DNA from: Blastococcus sp.
GTDB lineage: Bacteria > Actinomycetota > Actinomycetes > Mycobacteriales > Geodermatophilaceae
NCBI GenBank assembly: GCA_025965715.1
Contig: JAOPWJ010000153.1
Coordinates: 1 to 33,854 of the forward strand
DNA: 33,854 bases
Reading direction: 5' to 3'
Part shown: in pieces, positions 698-33,849 of the stretch
How positions within the stretch are numbered: the first letter of the stretch is position 1
Layout: every line of letters begins with the position of its first letter
Notes under the pieces: model-generated
Seen by the model: only the letters and a program-made list of their open reading frames with translations
What the model was told of the DNA's origin: nothing
Databases searched by the model: none
Made by a program: the position numbers and the translations under genes

Positions 698-1627
698 CTA
701 ATCCGCCCGGGAGAGCTCGACGGCGCGGTGCACCCAGGTGCTGGTGACGACCATCCCGACCCGTTCGTAGAGGCCGAGGGCGCCGGTGCGCGAGTCGGTG
801 GACAGCTCGCAGCGCGTGGCGCCGTGCTCGCGGGCGTTGGCAAAGGCGTCCGCCAGGAGGGCCCGGGCCAGCCCGAGCCCCCGCCGGTCCCGGTGCACCG
901 CGACCATGGCGACGTAGCCGATGTCGCCGCTGAGGATCAGGAAGCAGGCGCCGACCGCGTTTCCCTCGGCGTCCCCGACGATCCGCAGATGCCACGGCTG
1001 GAACCCCGGCCGGCGGAGGGTCATCGCGGAGAAGTCCTCGAAGGACCGCCGTTGCCGCTCCGACCATTCGAGGAAGGCGTCCTCGATCACGGTCCAGGCG
1101 GCGCGGTGATCCGTGTCGCTCTCCGCGGTTCGGATCGAGCATCCCTCCGGCAGGGGGTGGGTGGCGATCCGTCTGCCCTCTGGCAGCTGCATCGCCCACG
1201 AGTTCCACCGGATGAAGTAGCCCAGGCCCTCCAGTAGCACGTCGGCCGGAGAGCCCTGGGGCACCGCCATCCCGAACACCGAGGCGCCGCGCTCGCGAGC
1301 GAGCTCCTGCGTCCAGGCGGCCAGTGCCGTGCCGATGCCCCGCCCGCGGTACCGGGGGTGGACCGCGGCGTCCCCGGTGCCCTCGTCATCGACCTCGGCG
1401 TAGGCCACAAGACGATCCCCGTCGAAGATTCCGACCGTACTTGCCGAGACGTCGAAGCTCGGCCGCTGCCAGTCGCCCACGATGTCGGCCTCCTCGGTCT
1501 CGACCGTGCCGAGGTCGTGCAGTTCCTGGGCAGCCATCACCTCGAAGACGGCGCGGGCATCGGCCTCGGTCAGGGGCCGGGCAGAAAGATCCGCAGGGAG
1601 CTGCACGGGTGGAAGTGAACCGTGCAC
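698..1627 (-). CDS. Two-domain GNAT N-acetyltransferase
   Basis: A 309-residue protein with two tandem GCN5-related acetyltransferase domains. Each has an acetyl-CoA pyrophosphate-binding loop: HPRYRGRGIGTALAAW in the N-terminal half and HRDRRGLGLARALLADA in the C-terminal half. The closing segment GALGLYERVGM is the usual GNAT beta-bulge/tyrosine region. Length and double-domain layout resemble mycothiol synthase MshD, but nothing in the sequence or neighbourhood proves that substrate, so only acetyl-CoA-dependent acyl transfer is claimed. The start is GTG at 1627. The gene converges on clpC and lies 54 bases downstream of mutY, so it may be read with mutY. I do not recall a counterpart here in the M. 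tuberculosis clpC1-disA region. Confidence 0.85.
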   Translation of the reverse strand: MHGSLPPVQLPADLSARPLTEADARAVFEVMAAQELHDLGTVETEEADIVGDWQRPSFDVSASTVGIFDGDRLVAYAEVDDEGTGDAAVHPRYRGRGIGTALAAWTQELARERGASVFGMAVPQGSPADVLLEGLGYFIRWNSWAMQLPEGRRIATHPLPEGCSIRTAESDTDHRAAWTVIEDAFLEWSERQRRSFEDFSAMTLRRPGFQPWHLRIVGDAEGNAVGACFLILSGDIGYVAMVAVHRDRRGLGLARALLADAFANAREHGATRCELSTDSRTGALGLYERVGMVVTSTWVHRAVELSRAD

Positions 1628-2685: not shown

Positions 2686-3375
2686 GTGTGGCACCCGGTC
2701 GGCGAGCTGCCCGCCGCGGTCTACTGGCGGCGGCGCCTGGTGGTGACCGCCGTCCTGCTGGGTGTTCTCGCCGGCTTCTCGTGGGTGGGTGTGACCCTGC
2801 TGAGTGGACGGTTCTCCAGCGACGCGTCCGACACGTCGGTCGGCACCTCGGGGAAGGCCGCCGTTCCGGCGCCCGCGCTGGAACGGGTCGTGCCTTCGCT
2901 CACCGCCCTGCGCACCCCGACCCCGCCGCTCCCTGCCCCGGTCGCGAAGTCCGTACCGGCGCCGACCGCAGCCGCACCGGTGGCCGGCGGGCCGTGCGCG
3001 GACGGCATCCTCGGGCTCGTGGTGCGCGCCCCGGCGGCCATCGACGTGGGCAGCAGACCCACGTTCCAGCTGGTCGTCCAGAACACGTCGGGGGTGCCCT
3101 GCGTGCGGCCGCTGCACAGGGCCCTGCAGGAGATCGTCCTGCTCGACGGGCGCGGCACACGGCTGTGGGGCAGCAACGACTGCTTGTCAGGGGCCGGCCC
3201 GGACACCCGCACGCTGCTGCCGGGCGTCGCCGTGTCGTTCCCCCTGCTGTGGGACGGCCTCACCAGTGAGCCCACCTGTAGCGCCGCCCGCGTACCCCCG
3301 GCGGCGGGTGCTTACCTGCTGCGTGGCCGGCTGGACACGAAGAGGACGCCGGACCTCCAGATCGTCCTGCAGTAA
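2686..3375 (+). CDS. Membrane-anchored Ig-like extracytoplasmic protein, function unknown
   Basis: A 229-residue protein I cannot name. It has a short cytoplasmic start (WHPVGELPAAVYWRRR) and one transmembrane helix at about 18-39. A Pro/Ala/Ser/Thr-rich linker of about 60 residues follows, then a beta-rich domain from residue 104. This domain looks like an Ig-like or DUF4232-type fold, with four cysteines (104, 139, 166, 198) that could form two disulfides outside the cell. The start is GTG at 2686. It lies between mutY and disA, converging on disA with a 16-base gap. The same position in M. tuberculosis holds the membrane protein Rv3587c, so this is probably the positional equivalent. That is inference from gene order, not from alignment. 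Confidence 0.8.
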   Translation: MWHPVGELPAAVYWRRRLVVTAVLLGVLAGFSWVGVTLLSGRFSSDASDTSVGTSGKAAVPAPALERVVPSLTALRTPTPPLPAPVAKSVPAPTAAAPVAGGPCADGILGLVVRAPAAIDVGSRPTFQLVVQNTSGVPCVRPLHRALQEIVLLDGRGTRLWGSNDCLSGAGPDTRTLLPGVAVSFPLLWDGLTSEPTCSAARVPPAAGAYLLRGRLDTKRTPDLQIVLQ

Positions 3376-3391
3376 GGACCCGTCGCAGGCC

Positions 3392-4477
3392 TCAGCTGTA
3401 GCGGTCGAGGATCGAGGTCTCGGCCAGCCGGGACAGCCCCTCGCGAATGCCCCGCGCCCGTGCCTCGCCGACGCCCTCGACGGCCAACAGATCCTCGATG
3501 GTGGCGGCCAGCAGCTTCTGCAGCCCGCCGAAGTGGTCGACCAGTCGGTCGATGATGCCGCCGGGCAGTCGTGGCACCCGGTTGAGCAGTCGGTACCCGC
3601 GCGGGCTGACGGGGGAGTCCAGTGCGTCGGGCGACGTCGGCAGGCCGTAGCAGCGGGCGACCGCGGAGAGGTCGAGCAGTTCGGTGGCCGACAGAGCGCG
3701 CAGGTCGGTGAGCACCTGCTCGATGCTGCGAGGACGGCGCCCGGCGCCAGGCAGGTAGTCGCGGACGAGCAGTCCACGGTCCTCCTCGACCCCGGCCAGC
3801 ATCTCGTCGAGCTGGAGGGCGAGCAGCCGGCCATCGGTACCCAGCTCGACGACGAAGCCCTCGATCTCGTCGGCGATGCGCCGGACCATCTCCAGGCGCT
3901 GACTGACGCTCATCGCGTCGCGGACCGTGACGAGGTCCTCGATCTCCAGGGCGGACAGCGTGCTGGCCACCTCGTCGAGGCGCAGCTTGTAACGCTCGAG
4001 GGCGGCGAGGGCCTGATTCGCCCGGGCGAGGATCGTGGTCGGGTGCTCGAGGGTGTAGCGGCGACCGGCGACGTACACGCTGATGATGTGCATCGACTGG
4101 CTCACCGAGATGACCGGGAAGCCGGTCTGCAGCGCCACTCGCTCGGCGGTGCGGTGCCGGGTGCCCGACTCCTCCGTGGGGATGGTCGGGTCGGGCATCA
4201 GGTGCACGCCGGCCCGGACGATCCGCATGCCGTCGTAGGAGACGATGACTGCGCCGTCCATCTTGGCGAGCTCGCGCAGCCGGGTAGCGGAGAGAGCGAC
4301 ATCGAGCGCGAAGCCACCGGTGCACAGCGACTCGACCACGCGGTCGTGGCCCAGCACGATCAGCGCGCCGGTGCGGCCGGCCAGGATGCGCTCCAGACCG
4401 TCGCGCAGCGCCGTCCCAGGGGCGATGCGGCCGAGCAGCTCGCGCAACGCGACCTCGGGGTCCACCTCGGCGGGCAC
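3392..4477 (-). CDS. disA: DNA integrity scanning protein DisA, diadenylate cyclase
   Basis: DisA makes cyclic di-AMP from two ATP and binds branched DNA. The 361-residue protein has the N-terminal DAC domain with DGA (74-76) in [12 protein letters not shown] and RHR (107-109) in [11 protein letters not shown], the two catalytic/ATP-binding signatures. A helical spine follows, then a C-terminal helix-hairpin-helix DNA-binding region ending in [16 protein letters not shown]. The start is GTG at 4477, preceded at 5 bases by AGGAG on the minus strand. It lies 102 bases downstream of radA on the same strand. RadA is known to interact with and inhibit DisA in other bacteria, so linkage supports joint function. 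All key residues are present. Confidence 0.97.
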
Positions 4478-8525: not shown

Positions 8526-9383
8526 TCACGCTACGGAGGCTCCGCCCAGCAGGAGCAGCACGACGTCGAGCACCGTCAACAGCATCACGGCCGGGAACGC
8601 GAGCCGGCGGAAGCGGTCGGTACCGGCCAGGGCGGCCACGACGACGGCCGGGAGGGCGAGGGCGAGGGCGAGCCAGCCGGCAGGCGTCGGCCGTCCCGCG
8701 GGCGCGGCCACGAGCACGATCGAGGCCGCGCCCAGGAGCAGGGCCCCGGCCGCCGCGGACACCCGCGGGCCCAGCCGGTGCGGCAGGCCGCGGATGCCGG
8801 TCGCCAGATCGTCCTCGAGATCGGGTGCGACGTTCGCGAGATGCGCCGCCGCACCGAGCGCCCCTCCGGCCACCACCAGCCACCACGGTGCGGCGGGTGC
8901 GCCCGGCGCCGCGGCCACCACACCGGCGGGCAGGGCCCCGAAGCCGACGACGTAGCCGATCCACGAGCCCCAGGTGCGCTTGAGACCAGCGTTGTAGGCC
9001 CAGCCGCCGGCGACGAGGACGAGCAGCAGCGCGCCGGGCACCGCCCCGAGGAGCAGCGACAGGACGACGGCGAGCGCGACCGCGATCACCGCCGCGGAGC
9101 GCAGCTGCCCGGGTCGGACGGCGCCCTGCACGACCGGCTTGTCGCCCCGCGCCACGGCGCGGTCGCGATCGGCGTCCAGCCAGTCGTTGCTCCACCCGAT
9201 GGACGCCTGACCTGCGAGGACGGCCGCGAAGACCAGCGCCGTGCGCCCGCTCGGCAGCCCGGCGGCCACGGCCAGGAGGGTCGCGACGACGGTCACCGCG
9301 ACGACCGGTCCGGGATGGGTCGCGTCGACCAGTGCGCGCACCGCGGGGCGCCCCTCAGGTCCCCGCGCAGGCACATCCGGCAC
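8526..9383 (-). CDS. UbiA-family membrane prenyltransferase
   Basis: A 285-residue, mostly hydrophobic protein with about eight or nine transmembrane helices. The first Asp-rich motif is SNDWLDADRDRAVARGDKP (Asn66, Asp67, Asp70, Asp74). The second is APDLEDDLATGIRGLP (Asp188, Asp191, Asp192). These bind the Mg-diphosphate of a prenyl donor in the UbiA superfamily. The acceptor cannot be deduced: quinone head groups, heme or polyprenyl sugar acceptors are all possible, and nothing here marks it as MenA. The start is GTG at 9383. The gene diverges from carD across about 120 bases. The nearby MEP-pathway genes ispD and ispF supply precursors for prenyl donors, which may or may not be meaningful. 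Confidence 0.88.
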   Translation of the reverse strand: MPDVPARGPEGRPAVRALVDATHPGPVVAVTVVATLLAVAAGLPSGRTALVFAAVLAGQASIGWSNDWLDADRDRAVARGDKPVVQGAVRPGQLRSAAVIAVALAVVLSLLLGAVPGALLLVLVAGGWAYNAGLKRTWGSWIGYVVGFGALPAGVVAAAPGAPAAPWWLVVAGGALGAAAHLANVAPDLEDDLATGIRGLPHRLGPRVSAAAGALLLGAASIVLVAAPAGRPTPAGWLALALALPAVVVAALAGTDRFRRLAFPAVMLLTVLDVVLLLLGGASVA

Positions 9384-31514: not shown

Positions 31515-32348
31515 CTAGATGCTCGCGCGCACCGCCTGGGCCCAGCCCTCGCCCATCGCGCCCTCGGTCACGGTCGCGTTCGGCACGGCGGCCAGCAGCG
31601 CGGCCATCCCGTCGACCGCGGCCCCGTTCGCCGTGATGTACAGCCGGCCGACCGCGGGTGCCATGTCGAGGTCACTGACGCTGTCGCCGATTGCCACGGC
31701 GTCGGCCGGCGTCAGACCCCGGCGCTGGAGGTCCCAGGCGATCGCCGCGCCCTTGGAGATGCCGCGCGGCATCAGGTGGTAGACCCGCGGCTGGCGCGGA
31801 TCGGCGTCCAGGGTCATCCGGGACGTCGCCGGGAACGCGCCGTTGTCCTTGAGGGTCAGCCAGCCGAACCCCTGCCGCGCGAGCCACGCGTCGACGGCCA
31901 GCGGGTCGACCCGGCCCCGCAGCAGGGCGTCGGTCGTGTGTGTGGCGTGCCAGGGCGCGTGCCACTCCAGCCGGCCGGGATGCTCGGCGATCAGCCGCTC
32001 GACGACGGCGAGGCCTGCCATCACCTCCATCGGCGTCCGGCCCGCATGCTCGGCGGGCAGCTCGCCGGGAAGTCGGTGCGTTCCGCGGCCCGCGTCCCAG
32101 CTGATCGTTGCGCCCAGCTCGGCGATGGCGCCGTCGGCGGCGAAGATGCGGGCGGCCTCCACGACCTGCTCGGAGGTGCGGCCGCTGACCAGCACCAACG
32201 GGATCCCGGCCCGGTGCAGTTCCAGCAGCGCGCCGGCCGGCCCGTCGGTCAGCTCTCGTCCGGCGGTGTGCCAGAACGATCCCCGCGGGCCCACCATCGT
32301 GCCGTCGAGGTCGGTGTAGACGATGCGCGCGGGCGGGGGTGCGGTCAC
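31515..32348 (-). CDS. HAD-superfamily phosphatase (Cof-type, IIB cap)
   Basis: A 277-residue soluble phosphatase. The four HAD motifs are present: DxDGT with Asp13 (nucleophile) and Asp15 in VYTDLDGTMVG, Ser55 in LVLVSGRTSE, Lys199 in PRGISKGAA, and Asp222/Asp226 in AIGDSVSDLDM. The stretch between motifs II and III forms a large C2B-type cap. The family acts on sugar phosphates or other small phosphate esters, such as mannosyl-3-phosphoglycerate; the substrate cannot be read here. The GTG 32348 start has AGGA 7 bases upstream; the longer open frame runs over the riboswitch in antisense. It diverges from the SAM-riboswitch gene over 199 bases. Confidence 0.9.
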   Translation of the reverse strand: MTAPPPARIVYTDLDGTMVGPRGSFWHTAGRELTDGPAGALLELHRAGIPLVLVSGRTSEQVVEAARIFAADGAIAELGATISWDAGRGTHRLPGELPAEHAGRTPMEVMAGLAVVERLIAEHPGRLEWHAPWHATHTTDALLRGRVDPLAVDAWLARQGFGWLTLKDNGAFPATSRMTLDADPRQPRVYHLMPRGISKGAAIAWDLQRRGLTPADAVAIGDSVSDLDMAPAVGRLYITANGAAVDGMAALLAAVPNATVTEGAMGEGWAQAVRASI

Positions 32349-32396: not shown

Positions 32397-32409
32397 CGTG
32401 CATGTTCCA

Positions 32410-32533
32410 CTCATCCAGAGGGGCAGAGGGACACGGCCCGTTGAAGCCCCGGCAACCGCCGCTGCGCACCGTTGCAGCGGGAGGTGCCAATTCCGTCCCG
32501 CGCGGCTCGACGGCCCGATGCGGGGAAGATGAG
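32410..32533 (+). ncRNA. SAM-I (S-box) riboswitch aptamer
   Basis: Full S-box architecture can be drawn. P1 is CTCATC (32410-32415) with GATGAG (32528-32533). P2a is GGGGC (32420-32424) with GCCCC (32446-32450), and the kink-turn carries AGAGGGAC and TTGAA. P2b is GGG/CCC. The L2 bases ACGG (32433-32436) form a pseudoknot with CCGT (32493-32496). The invariant GCAACC is at 32452-32457. P3 is CCGCTGC (32459-32465) with GCAGCGG (32474-32480), followed by the consensus GGTGCCAATTCC (32483-32494). P4 is CCCGC/GCGGG (32497-32501, 32520-32524). The 3' strand of P1 shares GAG with the Shine-Dalgarno sequence GAGGAGG (32531-32537) of the following gene, so SAM binding should block translation. Confidence 0.95.
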
Positions 32534-32547
32534 GAGGTAGTCGTCGT

Positions 32548-33849
32548 ATGACTCTGACCGCTCCCGGTTCGACCCAGGCGGACTCCAGCGCCGGTGGACC
32601 CACGTTCGCCAATCCCGCCCGCGGGCTCGTCTGCCGCAACTGCGGCGCGACCTTCGGGCTGATCGCCGAGCACGCCTGCGCCGAGTGTTTCGGGCCCCTG
32701 GAGGTCGACTACGACCCCGAGCTCATGCGGGCGGTCACCCGCGAGCAGATCGAGGCCGGTCCGCAGAACATCTGGCGCTACGTCGCGCTGCTCCCGGTGG
32801 GCCACGACCCAGCCGCGCGGGTCAGCCTGGACCCGGGCCTGACCCCGCTGATCCGGGCCGACCGGCTCGCGGAGGAGCTGGGCCTGACCGGCGGACTGTG
32901 GGTGAAGGACGACTCGGCCAACCCCACGCACTCGTTCAAGGACCGCGTGGTCAGCATGGCCGCGACCGCCGCGAAGGGACTGGGCTACCGCAAGATCGCG
33001 GCCGCCTCGACCGGCAACCTGGCCAACTCGGTCGCCGCGCACGCGGCGCGCGCCGGCATCCCCTCGTTCGTCTTCATCCCGTCCGACCTCGAGCCCGGCA
33101 AGGTCGTGCAGTCGGCGGTCTACGGGCAGACGCTCGTCGCGGTCGACGGCTCCTACGACGACGTCAACCGGCTGACCAGCGAACTCGCGGAGACCGACGA
33201 GTTCCAGGACACCGCGTTCGTCAACCAGAACGTGCGGCCCTACTACGCCGAGGGCTCCAAGACGATGGGCTACGAGATCGCCGAGCAGCTCGGCTGGCGC
33301 ATCCCGGCCCAGGTCGTCATCCCCATGGCGTCGGGCTCGCTGCTGACCAAGGTCGACAAGGCATTCCGCGAGCTGACCGCCGCCGGCATCGTCGAGGCCA
33401 CCGAGTGGGCGATCTTCGGCGCCCAGTCCGCCGGCTGCGACCCGATCGCCACCGCGTTCGACAACGGATGGGACGTCGTCAAGCCGGTGAAGCCCTTCGG
33501 CATCGCCAAGTCGCTGAACATCGGCAACCCCGCCGACGGCCCGTACGCGCTCGACGCGATCCGCCGCACTGGAGGCGCCGTCGGCCGCGTGGGGGACGAC
33601 GAGATCGTGCAGGGCATCCGCGACCTGGCCCGCACCACGGGCGTCTTCGCCGAGACCGCCGGCGGCGTGACCGTCGCCGTCCTCCGGCAGCTGGTGGAGA
33701 ACGGGCGGCTGGACCCCAGCAAGGAGACCGTCGTCCTGAACACCGGCGAGGGCCTCAAGACCCTCGACCCGCTCGAGCCGGTCGTCGGCCCGACGCACCA
33801 CGTGCAGCCGTCGCTGAGGTCGCTGCGCGACGCCGGCCTGATCGGCTGA
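32548..33849 (+). CDS. thrC: Zinc-ribbon threonine-synthase-like PLP enzyme under SAM riboswitch control
   Basis: A 433-residue fold-type II PLP enzyme. An N-terminal zinc ribbon (Cys29, 32, 44, 47) precedes the catalytic domain. The PLP lysine is Lys131 in NPTHSFKDRVVSMA. STGNLANSVAAHAARAGI is the substrate/PLP phosphate-binding loop region. IPMASGSLLTKVDKAF and FAETAGGVTVAVL are further threonine synthase features, and NTGEGLK lies near the end. The ATG at 32548 has GGAGG 10 bases upstream. Threonine synthase converts O-phosphohomoserine to threonine. Yet the upstream SAM-I riboswitch suggests a methionine-linked role, that is, homocysteine formation from O-phosphohomoserine as described for the homologue MetM. 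The symbol thrC is a family label. The stop is 5 bases from the window edge, so a partner gene cannot be seen. Confidence 0.9.
   Translation: MTLTAPGSTQADSSAGGPTFANPARGLVCRNCGATFGLIAEHACAECFGPLEVDYDPELMRAVTREQIEAGPQNIWRYVALLPVGHDPAARVSLDPGLTPLIRADRLAEELGLTGGLWVKDDSANPTHSFKDRVVSMAATAAKGLGYRKIAAASTGNLANSVAAHAARAGIPSFVFIPSDLEPGKVVQSAVYGQTLVAVDGSYDDVNRLTSELAETDEFQDTAFVNQNVRPYYAEGSKTMGYEIAEQLGWRIPAQVVIPMASGSLLTKVDKAFRELTAAGIVEATEWAIFGAQSAGCDPIATAFDNGWDVVKPVKPFGIAKSLNIGNPADGPYALDAIRRTGGAVGRVGDDEIVQGIRDLARTTGVFAETAGGVTVAVLRQLVENGRLDPSKETVVLNTGEGLKTLDPLEPVVGPTHHVQPSLRSLRDAGLIG

Follow-up and report, generated by a model that had tools for sequence, protein, structure and literature searches.

A SAM-I riboswitch precedes a probable MetM-type threonine synthase homologue in Blastococcus sp., in a lineage with no metO gene beside metM

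A gene of Blastococcus sp. that matches threonine synthase models stands directly behind a SAM-I (S-box) riboswitch aptamer, which raises the question of whether its product would make threonine or, like MetM of Streptomyces, homocysteine, and from which donor it would then take its sulfur. Threonine synthase (ThrC) uses O-phosphohomoserine as substrate. The gene lies at the end of the window, i.e., the whole stretch of 33,854 bases that was analysed, which is an entire contig and ends 5 nt past the stop codon of the metM-like gene; the genome assembly to which it belongs is 80% complete. The features of the locus are given in Table 1. A PHROGs search gave no result.

Table 1. Features at the metM-like locus of Blastococcus sp. 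(positions in the window).
Feature	Position	Strand	Basis or remark
SAM-I (S-box) riboswitch aptamer, complete	32408..32535	+	RF00162, 74.8 bits, E 5.7e-16, model positions 1-108
P1 helix, 5' strand CACUCAUC; two outermost pairs non-standard	32408..32415	+	Rfam alignment
P1 helix, 3' strand GAUGAGGA (32528-32535), with Shine-Dalgarno overlap	32528..32537	+	Rfam alignment; predicted fold pairs this region
metM-like gene, 433 aa, predicted O-phosphohomoserine-dependent homocysteine synthase	32548..33849	+	Sequence family, Pfam, NCBIfam "threonine synthase"
Zinc-ribbon-type cysteines C29, C32, C44 and C47, N-terminal	32632..32688	+	No variation across an alignment of 46 MetM proteins
NPTHSFKDRVV motif, K131 being the presumed PLP lysine	32920..32952	+	Bacterial ThrC form NPTGSFKDRG
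RPYYAEGSKT motif	33235..33264	+	ThrC form R(I/L)EGQKT; clearest difference between MetM and ThrC
Divergent neighbouring gene, HAD-phosphatase-like by eye, outside the system	31672..32346	-	No Pfam match

The first-pass annotation had placed a complete S-box directly before a zinc-ribbon, threonine-synthase-like gene, and this was borne out by a full-length covariance model match to RF00162 above the gathering threshold of 44.4 bits, the earlier coordinates starting two bases into the aptamer. It is the only match to RF00162 found in the assembly; among 14 control genomes the same search gave matches in three, including B. subtilis. The energy of the predicted leader fold is not unusual when compared with shuffled sequences (z -0.68); the case for the aptamer rests on the covariance model.

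Regarding the mode of control, the P1 helix (CUCAUC/GAUGAG) continues into the Shine-Dalgarno-like sequence GAGGAGG (32531-32537), which overlaps the 3' strand of P1 and lies 10 nt upstream of the ATG, and the predicted fold of the leader extends the pairing across the Shine-Dalgarno region toward the start codon. The aptamer ends 12 nt before the start of the metM-like gene, and at 63 other loci the distance between the aptamer and the first in-frame start ranges from 0 to 205 nt with a median of 13 nt, being 30 nt or less at 62 of them; the match at locus L141, 205 nt from the start, is probably misplaced. With so few bases between them a terminator would hardly fit, which favours translational control. 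The Shine-Dalgarno core overlaps the last eight bases of the aptamer at 46 of the 63 loci and, by the pattern used, does not do so at the other 17, a count without a proper control since GAUGAG is itself part of the conserved P1. The aptamer and its overlap with the Shine-Dalgarno sequence can be read directly from the DNA; the leader would be expected to respond to SAM, and the switch on metM probably acts at translation. SAM-I control of methionine synthesis that is primarily translational, together with sensing of uncharged tRNA, is reported in the accessible part of a study of the Xanthomonas met operon (PMC7270179), in which, as predicted for the window although in another phylum, a SAM-I RNA governs methionine synthesis.

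The same arrangement was found in relatives. MetM genes were detected in 53 of 61 related genomes (the copy in G030 being a fragment), and for 52 of these 53 genes an RF00162 match was located 2-63 nt upstream of the MetM protein match, while in the remaining genome, G041, the S-box and metM lie close to the ends of two different contigs. With 52 of 53 MetM genes directly behind an S-box, the pairing is not due to chance. When the positions of all 60 S-boxes were compared by eye with those of canonical thrC genes, none of the S-boxes adjoined a canonical thrC; eight of the 60, including that of G041, do not precede MetM. By eye, two of these (L222, L223) are upstream of metN-type transporter genes, one (L221) is upstream of a sulfonate-type transporter gene and two (L225, L226) are upstream of metX/metB-like genes, the other two being L220 and L224. 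At L220 (G056:C75), a SAM-I and a SAM-IV aptamer, at 3093-3182 (-) and 3347-3461 (+), lie about 165 nt apart and point outward. In the class as a whole, MetM was detected (E <= 1e-90) in 189 of 296 sampled genomes, and twenty of the genomes listed as lacking it come from a single family, f8. All 40 class-level loci that were scanned, of which 32 were fetched stretches and 8 came from the 29 automatic loci L139-L167, gave RF00162 matches above gathering, the weakest being L141 and L146 with 49.1 and 47.0 bits.

Regarding the identity of the enzyme, the window protein belongs to the PLP-dependent PALP family (PF00291, 228 bits), as do the canonical ThrC enzymes of known structure (2zsj, 1uim, 6cgq and 2d1f), and its AlphaFold2 model, for which 45 proteins of the window and the loci were aligned, reaches a mean pLDDT of 92.0 and a pTM of 0.90. 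Its score exceeds the cut-off of the NCBIfam threonine synthase (thrC) model TIGR00260 (240.7 vs. 167.1) and falls below that of PRK08197 (284.8 vs. 303), a pattern shared by the metO-linked MetM of locus L188. Unlike ThrC, the window protein has an extra zinc ribbon, changed motifs and an S-box upstream of its gene. NPTGSFKDRG and R(I/L)EGQKT, or motifs close to them, occur in all four of these bacterial structures, the plant threonine synthase 1e5x being more divergent, whereas the window protein has NPTHSFKDRV and YAEGSKT. Across the MetM family the forms that contrast with ThrC are NPTHSFKDRVV vs. NPTGSFKDRGM, STGNLA vs. STGNTS, RPYY(A/G)EGSKT vs. FRIEGQKT, and ETAGG vs. EPASA. Residues V134, L158, R230, Y233, S237, S262, K268, G372 and G373 are invariant in an alignment of 46 MetM proteins, and the ThrC encoded elsewhere in the Blastococcus genome differs from the MetM type at all nine. 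MetM-specific residues are likewise missing from the bacterial ThrC proteins of known structure.

This ThrC was recovered in a search of the genome for homologues of the window protein, which gave two further homologues at E <= 0.01, one being a weak match of 28.8 bits and the other, on contig C85, a ThrC of 358 aa that is 37-39% identical to the window protein and flanked by genes encoding homoserine dehydrogenase and a GHMP kinase, in the order hom-thrC-thrB. No riboswitch match was obtained at this locus in an Rfam scan, and the second, riboswitch-free thrC to which the first-pass annotation had pointed as a check is therefore present. In a tree built from 83 MetM rows with a single ThrC, the window protein falls in one family with metO-linked genes, apart from ThrC, and its identity to the MetM proteins encoded by six f31 genomes (a family presumed to be Streptomyces), in which the next gene encodes a MetO-like carrier, is 58-60%; membership of the MetM family was judged without the sequence of S. 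albulus MetM itself. For S. albulus metM, the accessible part of a later study reports control by a SAM riboswitch and a role as homocysteine synthase (PMC12172450, citing Hasebe 2024). The separate thrC without an S-box, the MetM-type residues, the MetO-linked relatives and this precedent agree with the first-pass annotation in making it very likely that the window gene is of the MetM type and not ThrC, and the predicted activity of its product is homocysteine synthesis.

Methionine synthesis in this genome need not depend on such an activity, since MetX and MetY are present as well. The genome encodes MetY (PRK07812, 810 vs. a cut-off of 703), MetX (NF047917, 498.6 vs. 475) and a cystathionine gamma-synthase-type protein (PRK07811, 663 vs. 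513), and a SAM-IV aptamer of 86.5 bits is located upstream of metY-metX (L135, positions 5377-5492 of contig C102). Given MetX and MetY, MetM would constitute a parallel route to homocysteine. A SAM-IV match of 65.7-90.2 bits was also found upstream of metY (L297-L316) in all 20 relatives of family f1 that were tested, drawn from 26 other f1 genomes counted as having metX; in this family, a SAM-I aptamer thus precedes metM and a SAM-IV aptamer precedes metY-metX, as identified by covariance models. Six further metX loci (L127-L132) gave one truncated SAM-IV match and none at the other five, in stretches that may end before the leader, and none was detected at the three metX loci of other families (L127-L129) within the available stretch.

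Mutual exclusion of metX and metM was considered and not found, MetM being present in 32 of 36 metX-positive and in 21 of 25 metX-negative genomes, with metX called by an ad hoc line of 300 bits; scores in the searched and control genomes all stayed below the TIGR01392 cut-off of 500. MetM is missing from four metX-negative genomes, G020 (79% complete), G038, G046 and G059, the last three of which have weaker MetX-like matches. The first-pass annotation had named metX and metY as genes bearing on the role of the enzyme; both are present here, under a SAM-IV riboswitch that it had not foreseen, and 12 related genomes with a carrier-less MetM have no detected metX, metA or HcyBio, the metX search giving nothing better than E 1e-20 in ten of them (G017, G021, G023, G032, G042, G045, G048, G051, G052 and G055) and nothing at 1e-30 in the other two (G067 and G078). 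Among the 34 genomes searched for MetA and HcyBio, the former gave one match, a fragment in G060, and the latter none, while the same searches matched 8 and 3 of 14 control genomes, respectively. MetM would therefore be the only recognised entry to homocysteine in these 12 genomes, unless they have a cystathionine gamma-synthase that uses O-phosphohomoserine, as the plant enzyme does, or require methionine.

Regarding the sulfur carrier, a MetO-like protein is encoded after metM at 30 of 191 tabulated loci of the class, which include many duplicates or close kin; these are Nonomuraea (L138) and 29 more, all in other families. The proteins in this position have about 91-97 aa and a C-terminus of Gly-Gly or Gly-Gly-Cys, and a cold-shock gene lies further downstream at 16 of the 30 loci. 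The first-pass annotation had suggested that the carrier gene, if present, would lie just outside the window, and the relatives speak against this: metO was detected after metM at none of the 78 usable loci among 80 named ones (at least 852 nt readable downstream, two being too short), which are nearly all from Geodermatophilaceae or Micromonosporaceae, and at 39 of the 41 closest loci (L006-L045, L071) the start of a cspA-like gene is no more than 250 nt from metM. Short open frames with a Gly-Gly end were also sought, and those returned all looked like chance.

In the MetM tree, the 83 rows of which comprise 30 linked, 50 unlinked, two too short to score and the window, the window protein falls in a clade of 33 rows, supported at 95/92, in which 31 rows are carrier-less and two are unreadable. 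Mapping the carrier-less label on the whole tree gave 10 changes, at least six of which are forced by well-supported branches, so that linkage of metM and metO has changed several times. At seven positions, most carrier-less MetM proteins differ from most of the linked ones; these were rejected as a signature of carrier dependence, as they follow the tree and not the presence of metO. The carrier-less proteins of L169, L178, L180, L205 and L211 have linked-type residues, save at variable positions such as 100, and the metO-linked protein of L206 has residues of the carrier-less type. As the residues that distinguish the two big MetM subclades follow ancestry, no trace of the loss of linkage can be seen in the enzyme.

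Since metO is absent beside metM in the relatives, MetM may borrow sulfur from a carrier that also serves cysteine synthesis. The Blastococcus genome has a mec-cysO-cysM operon, the same as that of the Mycobacterium tuberculosis CysM-CysO-Mec system, in which CysO (L133) ends in Gly-Gly. The best PDB match of this protein is chain B of 4n6e, named "ThiS/MoaD family protein" and presumably from the BexX complex, and it matches with 116 bits chain C of 3dwg, whose PDB name is culture filtrate antigen and which we take to be CysO; its CysM matches 3dki (cysteine synthase B/O-phosphoserine sulfhydrylase) with 499 bits. Every counted PF02597 match was read in 17 genomes, namely 15 with a carrier-less MetM (G017, G023, G025, G032, G037, G040, G042, G045, G048, G051, G055, G058, G107, G133 and G142) together with the Blastococcus genome and G044, in both of which the readable stretch downstream of metM is too short to score metO linkage. 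CysO was present within mec-cysO-cysM in 16 of the 17, the exception being G042, which has a carrier-less MetM and instead of this CysO a CysO-like protein that extends beyond the Gly-Gly. A second protein grouping clearly with MetO was not found in any of the 17. In the carrier tree (92 columns), CysO (86/66) and MoaD (100/99) stand apart from the part that contains MetO, the base of which is poorly supported; carriers read later were assigned outside the tree by identity to one reference each (CysO 71-93%, MetO 49-56%). A further carrier that is neither clearly CysO nor clearly MetO by tree or identity was detected in the Blastococcus genome (L134, contig C42, around 3725-4018, with a Gly-Gly end) and in G017, as well as in the partly read G021 and G071. 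If the enzyme is a MetM, we consider the chance that CysO is its sulfur donor to be about even.

The explanation that we favour, and hold with good confidence as a whole, is that of a MetM switched by SAM-I, with CysO as the likeliest donor and a parallel MetX-MetY route. At high SAM, the aptamer and its P1 helix would be stabilised and part of the Shine-Dalgarno sequence would be held in the 3' strand of P1, so that metM would not be translated, and at low SAM the enzyme would be made. MetM would then replace the phosphate of O-phosphohomoserine, supplied by ThrB as a pool common to MetM and ThrC, by sulfur to give homocysteine. As MetO is not encoded with metM here, the sulfur would most likely come from thiocarboxylated CysO of mec-cysO-cysM, which also serves cysteine synthesis, with the second route via MetX and MetY running in parallel under its SAM-IV riboswitch. 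The more general proposal, that across the carrier-less branch CysO feeds both CysM and MetM from one thiocarboxylate pool and that in Geodermatophilaceae SAM-I and SAM-IV gate a carrier-dependent and a sulfide-dependent route to homocysteine, is tentative and falls somewhat short of an even chance.

Alternatively, MetM of this lineage may use free sulfide directly, in the manner of MetY and with no need for MetO or CysO. This would fit both the lack of linked metO at all 78 usable loci and the absence from G042 of a CysO within mec-cysO-cysM; however, CysO is present in the other 16 fully read genomes, and the residues of the enzyme are unchanged upon loss of linkage, although a new source of sulfur might leave a mark, and we regard direct use of sulfide as unlikely. 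Somewhat less probable still is service by another unlinked carrier, either L134 or a promiscuous MoaD or ThiS. L134 falls in the poorly resolved part of the carrier tree that contains MetO, and proteins of its kind occur in G017 and G021, but four genomes with a carrier-less MetM (G023, G025, G032 and G045) have nothing like it among the listed PF02597 matches, and its neighbours in the Blastococcus genome encode a BNR/sortilin-like protein and an acyl-CoA dehydrogenase.

Two further explanations concern the reaction itself. A cyanobacterial homologue, the gene of which adjoins a metO-like gene, is reported in the accessible part of PMC12172450 both to form threonine in vitro and to act on it as a deaminase, the M. 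aeruginosa protein being 51.6% identical to S. albulus MetM, and the window protein could accordingly combine homocysteine synthesis with threonine synthesis or act as a threonine deaminase. The separate hom-thrC-thrB operon, the replaced ThrC motifs and the retained S-box make this improbable, and the cyanobacterial gene is described, in the same part of that source, as having no SAM riboswitch. That the protein is a true threonine synthase isozyme, with the S-box controlling threonine for other reasons, is the least probable of all; its passing the TIGR00260 equivalog cut-off and the threonine reportedly formed in vitro by the M. aeruginosa homologue speak for it, and the same three features speak against it.

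When compared with known systems, the window and the Streptomyces MetM/MetO route (Hasebe et al., 2024, Appl Environ Microbiol 90:e01247-24, as cited in PMC12172450) have in common a threonine synthase homologue with a SAM riboswitch upstream and, as predicted here, O-phosphohomoserine as substrate; in contrast to that system, the lineage of the window has no linked metO, and the window genome carries metX-metY under SAM-IV. CysM, which shares the proposed donor, makes cysteine, while the product of MetM would be homocysteine. BexX of Amycolatopsis orientalis, as far as the accessible part of the source describes it, borrows sulfur carriers of primary metabolism (PMC11323500) and would resemble MetM as an actinobacterial enzyme on borrowed carriers, although it forms a 2-thiosugar for an antibiotic and not an amino acid. 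A literature search returned no report of MetM without metO or of CysO serving MetM, which the primary MetM paper could discuss, and, with partial coverage, none of SAM-I and SAM-IV paired on metM and metY-metX. Three points may be new: the carrier-less MetM branch, the likely role of CysO as donor to it, and the pairing of SAM-I with SAM-IV. The TIGR00260 label "threonine synthase" would hide a likely entry point to methionine in those genomes of the class that have MetM (189 of the 296 sampled), and the carrier-less branch makes it testable whether one ubiquitin-like sulfur carrier serves the synthesis of both cysteine and methionine. With SAM-I and SAM-IV in one genome, two SAM sensors can be compared, each on its own route to the shared product.

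Regarding the termini of the carriers, the chain of many CysO proteins continues past the Gly-Gly, in some cases by no more than Ala-Arg or Ser-Arg, and Gly-Gly-Cys is the terminus of several MetO and CysO proteins (L228, L229, L231, L232, L234, L237, L238, L241, L243, L247, L248 and L283); these extensions would presumably have to be removed before a thiocarboxylate can form. Within the set used for the carrier tree, tails after the Gly-Gly of CysO occurred in 8 of 10 metO-linked and 3 of 10 carrier-less genomes, and were dropped as a signal of linkage because the numbers are too few and confounded by ancestry. In L270 (G133:C1, around 2193362), a CysO-like domain with PAVAGG is followed in frame by a region that is cytochrome P450-like by eye, both in a single open frame of 504 residues, and the C-terminus of CysO in L279 (G032:C133, around 8767-9024) consists of four successive VAGG repeats. 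Past the linked metM-metO pair of L204, a c-di-AMP riboswitch of 71.2 bits is located at 1085-1261 (+), on the opposite strand.
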